From Chloroflexota bacterium (GTDB taxonomy: Bacteria > Chloroflexota > Anaerolineae > Aggregatilineales > Phototrophicaceae), in the NCBI GenBank assembly GCA_028873975.1, contig JAPPMO010000096.1, positions 51,410-115,409 on the forward strand: a stretch of 64,000 nucleotides of DNA, read 5' to 3'. Shown one piece after another: positions 20,681 through 54,933 of this stretch (positions within the stretch are counted from its first letter, which is position 1; each line of letters starts with the position of its first letter). Both the position numbers and the translations under genes were made by a program. Below the pieces are notes generated by a model that had not been told where the DNA came from, searched no databases, and saw nothing but the letters and a program-made list of their open reading frames with translations.

Positions 20681-20937
20681 CAGAGCAATCGCTTCAAAAT
20701 GATAGCGGCTGAAATTGCGGGAATCTAAACTGAATTTTAACCACAGAGAACACAGAGGGCACAGAGAAAATCATAAAATTCTTATTTCAATTGTGTTTTC
20801 GAGTGAAAAATCACGATTCGCTTATCACTCTTTCTTATGCTTCGTCCCAGGTTTTAGAAGAAATGTCGTCTGAACACCAAGTAACTCTGAGCGCTCTGCG
20901 CTCTCTGTGTTGAAAAAAATTTGAGGCGATTGCCCTG
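20681..20937 (+). mobile_element. MITE-like element, copy A (257 bp)
   Basis: A non-coding element with near-perfect 12-base terminal inverted repeats (CAGAGCAATCGC at the left, GCGATTGCCCTG at the right; one mismatch). Inside are two outward-facing arrays of CACAGAG-type units (about 20741-20766 and about 20887-20910). TGTGGCAAT flanks it at 20671-20679 and 20938-20946, apart from one extra T at 20680, consistent with a 9-base target duplication. It is closely similar throughout to the inverted copy at 53809-54067. No transposase is present, so it would be mobilised in trans. Confidence 0.88.
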
Positions 20938-53456: not shown

Positions 53457-53729
53457 TTATGAGACGCCGAAGCGTTTGGCATTGCGTTCCCGCGCTTTGG
53501 CGATTTCCGCCGCGCGGTCGCGGGGCGGGGCGCTCGTTTGCAAGCCGTTCAGCAGCGCCGCGGTCGCGGACGCGATCTCGGCGACTGCGCGTTCAAAAGC
53601 CGCTTTGTTGACGGCCGCGGGCTTGCGGAAGCCGCTGACCTTGCGCACATATTGCCGGGCGGCGGCTTCGATATCGTCGACCGTGCTGGGCGGATCGTAA
53701 TTGTAGAGCGTTCTTATGTTGCGACACAT
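53457..53729 (-). CDS. DUF2277 family protein
   Basis: A 90-residue protein with the family's hallmark MCRNIRTLYNYDPPST and AAARQYVRKVSGFRKP. The C-terminal half is helical (AFERAVAEIASATAALL, then a charged PPRDRAAEIAKARERNAKR). DUF2277 proteins are small, conserved and of unknown function, often found near DNA or RNA metabolism genes. It lies in the same orientation as the dehydrogenase but 69 bases away. Confidence 0.95.
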   Translation of the reverse strand: MCRNIRTLYNYDPPSTVDDIEAAARQYVRKVSGFRKPAAVNKAAFERAVAEIASATAALLNGLQTSAPPRDRAAEIAKARERNAKRFGVS

Positions 53730-53808
53730 TGTAGTTCCTCAAAACTTTGTCCACCGGCAGATATTCTAGCAGGTCCTGAAGGCTCAGTCGCGGTGGAGGG
53801 GTCCGTTC

Positions 53809-54067
53809 CAGGCCAATCGCATCAAATTATTTTTCAACACAGAGCGCGCAGAGCGCACAGAGTTACTTGGTGTTCAGACGACATTTTTTCTAAAATCCGA
53901 GACTAAGCATAAGAAAGAGTGATAAGCGAAACGTGATTTTTCACTCGAAAACACAGTTGAAATAAGACATTTTATGTTTTTCTCTGTGCCCTCTGTGTTC
54001 TCTGTAGTTAATATTCAGTTTAGATTCCCACCATTTCAGCCGCTATCATTTTGAAGCGATTGCCCTG
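53809..54067 (-). mobile_element. MITE-like element, copy B (259 bp), inverted
   Basis: Terminal inverted repeats are CAGGCCAATCGC (53809-53820) and GCGATTGCCCTG (54056-54067). The element is flanked by an exact 9-base direct repeat GGTCCGTTC (53800-53808, 54068-54076). Its interior matches copy A closely in inverse orientation. The right end supplies the last codons and the stop of the metallophosphoesterase gene. The rest of the 316-base gap between DUF2277 and that gene holds nothing else that I can support. Confidence 0.92.
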
Positions 54068-54933
54068 GGTCCGTTCAGGTTGCGATATGCGGGGGGCATA
54101 TACTCGCCGACGTCGTCCAAGTCAAGAAAGGCGCGCAGAAGTTCGAAATCGTCCGGACGATCAGCAAAATGCTTTAATTTCCAAAGGACAAAGGGATGCA
54201 CTTGAAGACGGGCGCTGCGGAATTCTTCGATTACCAGACGCGCTGTCACGCCGCCGCGTTCGACAAAGTTCTGCCGCTCAAATTCACGGTAGAGCGGATC
54301 GTAGTCGAAAGGAACGCGGCGATGCGCGGCCAGCTCCCAGCCCTTTGCATGACCATCGAGGATCATGTAGCTGGCGCTGAATTTGCCATCAAGCGGGACG
54401 CCGACGGAACCAGGATTAAAGATCTGCCAGCGGCCGACCTGCCGTTCCATTGGGATGTGGCTATGCGCGCAGATGACCGTGCCTTCCCGGATGCCGCGCA
54501 GCCAGTCCGCGACTTTGTCCTTAGCTGAATTGGGGAAGATCGCCTGCCAGGGATTGTCGGGCAAGCCATGGAACACGCGCAAGGGCGGCGCGTCCATAAA
54601 GCGCAGGGAGAGCGAATCGGGCAGGCAGCTAATCGCATTGAGCCAGTCGCCGCCCAGTTGCTCGCGCAGAATCGGCGGCAAGCTGAAACGCGCCCAGTGA
54701 TCCGGCGCGCGAGTGGTATTGTAATCCAGCGCGTAAAAGGCGTTGTTGCCGCGGATGAGCGCCCAGCGCCGCCGAAAGATCAGCTCCAGCACTTGGCGCG
54801 AGAAGGGTCCCCAATTGACGCTGTCGCCAGCCACGACGACCTGGTCTACATTGAATTGGCGCATGTCGTCGATGACAGCATGCAGAGCGGGCAGGTTGCC
54901 ATGAATATCGGCGAGGGCCGCGAGTCGGGTCAT
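54046..54933 (-). CDS. Metallophosphoesterase (calcineurin-like), C-terminus rewritten by MITE
   Basis: A 295-residue calcineurin-like phosphoesterase. All metal motifs are visible: ALADIHGN (Asp9, His11), VVAGDSVNWG, IRGNNAFYA, FHGLPDNP and CAHSHIPMER. The family hydrolyses phosphate mono- or diesters with a dinuclear metal centre. The last codons (N-G-P-R-A-I-A-S-K) and the stop come from inserted copy B. Removing the element and one direct repeat gives N-G-P-L-H-R-D and a stop at 53784-53786. The core is intact, so activity is probably unaffected. Confidence 0.9.
   Translation of the reverse strand: MTRLAALADIHGNLPALHAVIDDMRQFNVDQVVVAGDSVNWGPFSRQVLELIFRRRWALIRGNNAFYALDYNTTRAPDHWARFSLPPILREQLGGDWLNAISCLPDSLSLRFMDAPPLRVFHGLPDNPWQAIFPNSAKDKVADWLRGIREGTVICAHSHIPMERQVGRWQIFNPGSVGVPLDGKFSASYMILDGHAKGWELAAHRRVPFDYDPLYREFERQNFVERGGVTARLVIEEFRSARLQVHPFVLWKLKHFADRPDDFELLRAFLDLDDVGEYMPPAYRNLNGPRAIASK

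Follow-up and report, generated by a model that had tools for sequence, protein, structure and literature searches.

Among the short non-autonomous elements described in bacteria, RU-1 (ERIC/IRU) of enterobacteria is reported to abolish the stop codon of a conserved gene and to supply a C-terminus past the conserved domain; in the available part of that report, removal of the stop of an amidase gene lengthens the product from 461 to 496 aa (PMC2759123). The QMITE1 and QMITE2 elements of Coxiella burnetii have terminal repeats, QMITE2 with 7-9 bp duplications, and many of them are listed as overlapping the last 1-50 bp of functional genes; the accessible part of the account does not link these gene overlaps to a downstream promoter (PMC5896051). 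Correia elements, RUP, RPE and other bacterial MITEs are small and dispersed, some with stops in all six frames and some in in-frame gene fusions, and the review that covers them treats MITE-gene fusions, in its available sections, as a class (PMC2229807). The Anabaena genome is described, in the excerpt of the study at hand, as carrying an ISAs1 element and 147 MITEs, the MITEs being dissimilar to that genome's IS ends (PMC3542288). An ISAs1 partner located in another genome does not bar an element from being a MITE.

In view of RU-1, the QMITE elements and the review of fusions as a class, a C-terminus rewritten by a MITE is a kind already known, and the locus described here, from a window of 64,000 nucleotides of Chloroflexota DNA, is a well-resolved further case. 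The last codons and the stop of a metallophosphoesterase gene are read from an element, and the element-free orthologues end otherwise. The element belongs to a different family from RU-1, which is 127 bp long and adds about 35 residues (PMC2759123), whereas here 6 residues replace 4 and a sister species matches the old ending to the letter. It differs from the QMITE elements in host and in repeats (PMC5896051), and the Correia elements, RUP, RPE and the other MITEs are unrelated to it in sequence. No earlier report of this element or repeat was found in the open-access literature on repeats and ISAs1 MITEs. What may be new is the constant spacing at which the displaced codons precede a conserved -10 box of the downstream gene, DUF2277, together with the possibility that they double as that gene's -35 box. 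The locus is a clean example of a functional protein whose end has been written by a mobile element, the altered protein being predicted from the gene.

A 259-bp element with ISAs1-type ends

The element, copy B, spans 259 bp (53809 to 54067) and is bounded by 18-bp terminal inverted repeats, CAGGCCAATCGCATCAAA on the left (53809 to 53826, forward strand) and CAGGGCAATCGCTTCAAA on the right (54050 to 54067, reverse strand), which pair with 2 mismatches. As proposed in the initial annotation, it is flanked by an exact 9-bp target-site duplication, GGTCCGTTC, at 53800 to 53808 and again at 54068 to 54076; neither the element nor its duplications are assigned a strand. The ORF list holds no reading frame of at least 60 aa lying wholly within copy B. 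Another member of the same subfamily, copy A (20681 to 20937, no strand assigned), is intergenic and oriented opposite to copy B; it has TGTGGCAAT on both sides, with one extra T between the left repeat and the element, and similar slack is present in a few other copies. Inside copy B, runs of CACAGAG/CTCTGTG (or CACCGAG) occur at 53836 to 53853 and 53982 to 53999. Other repeats of these genomes contain runs of this type too, as do sites beside genes in related families (L070, L253, L267).

When up to 3 mismatches are allowed, the 18-bp end has four matches in the window where 0.12 would be expected; at up to 1 mismatch it has 316 in the whole 4.46-Mb genome, where the reversed pattern gives 0. 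It is present at least once in all 34 of 34 genus genomes. A blast search with copy B returned 335 first-look candidates in the same genome, the best 40 of which were scored, and between 22 and 40 further full-length relatives were scored there in all. For 36 subfamily copies gathered from part of the genome, end duplications were sought with up to 3 bases of slack: 23 copies have one of 8-11 bp, 2 have one of 7 bp and 11 have none, while the same search was positive for 14 of 20,000 random site pairs. In a genus-wide search, in which 22 candidates were scored per genome for most genomes, the copies listed in this genome are at least 92% identical and the best listed elsewhere reaches 80% (G004), a difference which suggests a recent burst of the element in this lineage. 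The phage and plasmid collections that were searched gave zero matches to the element.

The ends of the element resemble those of ISAs1 insertion sequences (NF033564), with which it shares the 18-bp end CAGGGCAATCGCATCAAA and a duplication size seen at 9-10 bp in two intact elements. One of these, in a genome of the same genus (L111), is 1245 bp long with a perfect 18/18 repeat pair and a 10-bp duplication, and encodes a 399-aa ISAs1 transposase scoring 409.8 bits to NF033564 (cut-off 70); the other, in a genome of the same order (L091), is 1211 bp long with a 9-bp duplication. Each end of copy B differs by 1 mismatch from the perfect repeat of the 1245-bp element. The likeness is confined to the ends: only the last 18-20 bp of the MITE match autonomous ISAs1 elements, and the MITE is without a transposase. 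ISAs1 target duplications range from 8 to 10 bp; for RU-1, the motif is TA. By its end match, its duplication size, its lack of a transposase and its many copies, copy B is identified as a MITE of ISAs1 type.

A search of this genome, a 95.8% complete assembly, for ISAs1 transposases (NF033564) gave no match at E <= 0.001, so the partner is missing or unassembled here. Matches were obtained in 10 of the 41 genomes searched, 7 of them above the cut-off, and mobilisation is accordingly argued from related genomes; the mover of the element was likely an ISAs1-family transposase. One further candidate for an autonomous element, in L084, was rejected: what lies between its terminal repeats, 1238 bp apart, is the start of an ordinary gene, with no transposase.

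Replacement of the phosphoesterase C-terminus

The gene affected encodes a calcineurin-like metallophosphoesterase of 295 aa (54046 to 54933, reverse strand; Pfam PF12850, 50.7 bits, and PF00149, 45.9 bits, both above cut-off), whose reading frame now ends NLNGPRAIASK. The initial annotation had ascribed the last coding bases to the element, which holds for R-A-I-A-S-K and the TGA stop (54046 to 54066, reverse strand), all encoded by the right end; N-G-P is contributed by the flank and the duplication, with the element's first C supplying the final base of the P codon, and the stop codon (54046 to 54048) lies just inside from the 18-bp terminal repeat and outside the repeat itself. When the frame is read by eye across the other flank, it continues P-L-H-R-D to a stop at 53784 to 53786. 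This relic of the original tail, CTC CAC CGC GAC TGA (53784 to 53798, reverse strand), is noncoding today and persists, with its stop codon, beyond the element and 3' of the new stop. Removal of the element and one duplication restores the ending NGPLHRD that had been reconstructed from this genome, the five codons then counted past the junction including the stop. The insertion point is four sense codons before the original gene end, and the remainder of the enzyme's frame is unaltered; the motifs DIHGN, GDSVN, GNN and HSHIPM, which we take to be catalytic, lie intact far upstream of the tail.

The comparison with orthologues that had been proposed as a check covered 61 genomes and yielded a clear orthologue in 30 of the 33 other same-genus genomes (one of the 30 is split over two contigs; G022, G027 and G033 gave weak phosphoesterase matches only). 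The gene ends LYRD at 13 of these loci, LHRD at 11 and LRRD at 1, so that LxRD followed by a stop is found at 25 of 30. The others end LYRA (2), LHRG (1) and LFRDSIVIT (1), and the ending in L048 is unreadable owing to a run of N. All five closest sisters (87-91% identity) lack the element and end LHRD, and one of them, L163, ends NLNGPLHRD, identical to the reconstruction. Element-free orthologues ending in RAIASK had been named as the observation that would count against an insertion; none of the 30 loci has that ending. Since element-free related species keep the old ending, the exchange of the enzyme's final residues through insertion of the element is taken to be a real event, and the ending predicted from a single genome is the one found in a sister species.

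Other genes that end in the element family were sought in a sample of 1,860,867 bases (41.7% of the genome), in which genes were called with a simple codon-usage script and 178 element ends were located at up to 2 mismatches. Although 81% of the sample is called coding, only 8 of the 178 ends fall at least 30 bp within a called gene. Four called genes end inside an element: right-type ends account for 3 (of 39), left-type ends for 1 (of 73) and the others for none (of 66). A gene named amidohydrolase-like by resemblance ends ELPPLPGQSHQNDSG before its stop; with its flanks joined across the element it would end ELPPLRR, and its orthologues end RR in 7 of 10 cases, the other 3 differing. By this comparison it is judged to have been rewritten in the same way as the phosphoesterase. 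In another species (L233), an element end starts two bases past the stop codon of the amidohydrolase-like gene that is rewritten here. A third gene (C23) ends QVMAGSGQSHQNDSG, its own stop codon lost at the junction with a copy that has no target duplication; in 12 of 12 orthologues the stop comes no more than about two residues past the VM-x-x position. A fourth apparent case, a histidine kinase gene (C77:106417-107727), was set aside as ambiguous: 4 of 5 close relatives stop in a sequence that could be either a decayed end of this type or a chance likeness. A fifth candidate (C116), seen with short pieces, was not recovered on whole-contig gene calling.

The downstream gene and alternative readings

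Downstream of the phosphoesterase lies a DUF2277 gene (PF10041) of 90 aa (53457 to 53729, reverse strand), and copy B is 79 bp before it. An extended -10 sequence, TGCTAGAAT (53763 to 53771, reverse strand), is found 42 nt before the DUF2277 start. The same box (TGNTANAAT and close variants) occurs 42-45 nt before DUF2277 at 22 of 30 loci, this one included, against 0.3 in mononucleotide shuffles. The eight loci without it have a very short gap (L041, L046, L047, L052), other sequence (L050, L057, L058) or Ns (L048); in L044 there is no DUF2277 start inside the stretch read. Among the 21 relatives that have the box, 20 have the phosphoesterase stop exactly 12 nt before the TG. The spacer letters between stop and TG are near-random (0.02-0.68 bits per column), and the columns of CGMGACTGA hold 1.0-1.7 bits each. 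GAC serves as the terminal Asp codon in 19 of 20 cases, compared with 339 of 583 Asp codons in gene bodies, although these are related species and do not amount to 20 independent trials. Other repeat-like sequence is present in the gap between phosphoesterase and DUF2277 in L044, L050, L057 and L058; in L057 it lengthens the phosphoesterase tail to LFRDSIVIT.

By its position 17 nt before the -10, GCGACT in the relic tail (53786 to 53791, reverse strand) falls at the place of a -35 box; as a candidate box it matches TTGACA at 3 of 6 positions, and a consensus scan for sigma-70-type promoters from 53600 to 54200 found none. The window retains everything from CTCCACCGCGACTGA to the -10, so that the insertion would have left the putative promoter whole. 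It is possible, at somewhat under even chances in our estimation, that the R-D-stop codons (CGMGACTGA) double as the DUF2277 -35 box, that the MITE split the two jobs and that its copies genome-wide outline promoters. The MITE may then have supplied the enzyme with a different ending while the old one stayed behind as pure promoter DNA. The coding and promoter signals are not cleanly separable, as one relative (L053) keeps the -10 with a tail of HRG and two others (L047, L052) keep RD with no -10. Among same-order relatives, 0 of 7 tails end in RD, and a pattern search of the stretches read gave no DUF2277 start; this absence fits a genus-level link of tail and promoter, and is confounded by distance.

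Taken as a whole, the locus is very probably explained by insertion of an ISAs1-type MITE that replaced L-H-R-D with R-A-I-A-S-K and was tolerated between codons and promoter. An ISAs1-family transposase acting in trans would have moved a copy into GGTCCGTTC, where a staggered cut would have produced the 9-bp duplication. Translation, as the frame is read, would extend 19 nt into the right end before stopping, and the relic tail DNA may carry the -35 box of DUF2277. The insertion was presumably tolerated because it landed between the enzyme's last needed codon and the first needed base of the DUF2277 promoter. This suggests a route of survival for such elements, namely insertion into the small gap between a last needed codon and the next promoter.

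That the RAIASK ending is ancestral, the sisters having changed and the element-like sequence being native, has no finding in its favour and is hardly credible when 25 of 30 relatives share an LxRD ending, none has RAIASK, and RAIASK itself is part of a repeat that is dispersed in the genome and bounded by a target duplication. An assembly artefact is conceivable in a metagenome-assembled genome of 119 contigs, where a number of contigs end about 20-250 bp or less from element ends of this kind and the element repeats evidently do trouble assembly. A repeat falsely joined between two genes would not, however, yield an exact 9-bp duplication, and the order of phosphoesterase then DUF2277 on the two flanks is that of the relatives, which makes such a join very improbable here. 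A different question is whether the conserved LxRD tail matters to the enzyme, in which case the insertion damaged it. A 13-sequence alignment shows the tail residues L, R and D to be nearly invariant where adjacent ones vary, and RD is kept at the two loci that have no -10 box, but the tails of the seven same-order relatives do without RD and the catalytic motifs are far removed from the insertion; we regard damage to the enzyme as rather unlikely.

The element could also have been retained as a useful portable stop, terminator or regulatory RNA, with the new tail or hairpin under selection. The initial annotation had described it as a portable stop codon, a description that suits the right end and fails for the left: the first stops in the three frames end 22, 32 and 48 nt into the right end and 85, 98 and 114 nt into the left. 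Within 60 nt of the right end, a stop is reached in the three frames in 34, 35 and 36 of 36 copies, respectively, and within 60 nt of the left end in 4, 4 and 3. The quickness of the right end is nevertheless near chance and requires no special design, since 11.9% of dinucleotide shuffles stop all three frames as early; the open left end, equalled by 1.1% of shuffles, is the rarer feature. The transcript strand of the element folds well (z -5.76, single sequence) and the gene tails sampled above fall more often at right-type than at left-type or other ends, but terminal inverted repeats give hairpins anyway, terminator-like matches are weakly in excess (2 vs 0.7 expected), and with 3 both-side changes vs 39 broken pair cells among 1533 in 35 copies, covariation lends no support. 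Retention for such a use is therefore considered improbable. An RNA role for the element was likewise rejected for want of covariation, the only Rfam match (MIR398, E 0.96) being at chance level.

Placement of copies relative to genes

If an insertion at the phosphoesterase survived because it spared both codons and promoter, the placement of other copies is of interest. The sample contains 53 paired insertions. Divergent genes flank 26 of them (12.4 expected by length), tandem genes 23 (31.0) and convergent genes 3 (8.6), and 1 is at an edge. For 44 single intergenic insertions in 1.86 Mb, with 65 flanking start codons, the distances to starts number 2 at 0-30 bp, 4 at 30-60 bp, 21 at 60-90 bp and 14 at 90-120 bp; random placement of each copy in its own interval would give 9.3, 9.5, 9.4 and 8.5, respectively. 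Under uniform intergenic placement, the counts at 0-30 bp (2 vs 3.9) and 30-60 bp (4 vs 3.6) show no significant deficit, and the excess at 60-90 bp (21 vs 3.1) is significant. Copies may avoid the 60 bp before starts and collect at 60-90 bp, just upstream of the place of the -35 box, as the wider part of the proposal that tail codons double as promoter would have it. On that proposal, a dense MITE family could be read as a natural map of promoter starts in uncultured bacteria, which are not yet open to direct testing. Gene 3' ends, too, have an excess of copies 60-90 bp away (8 vs 2.4, P 0.003), one that a promoter-based reading does not by itself predict.
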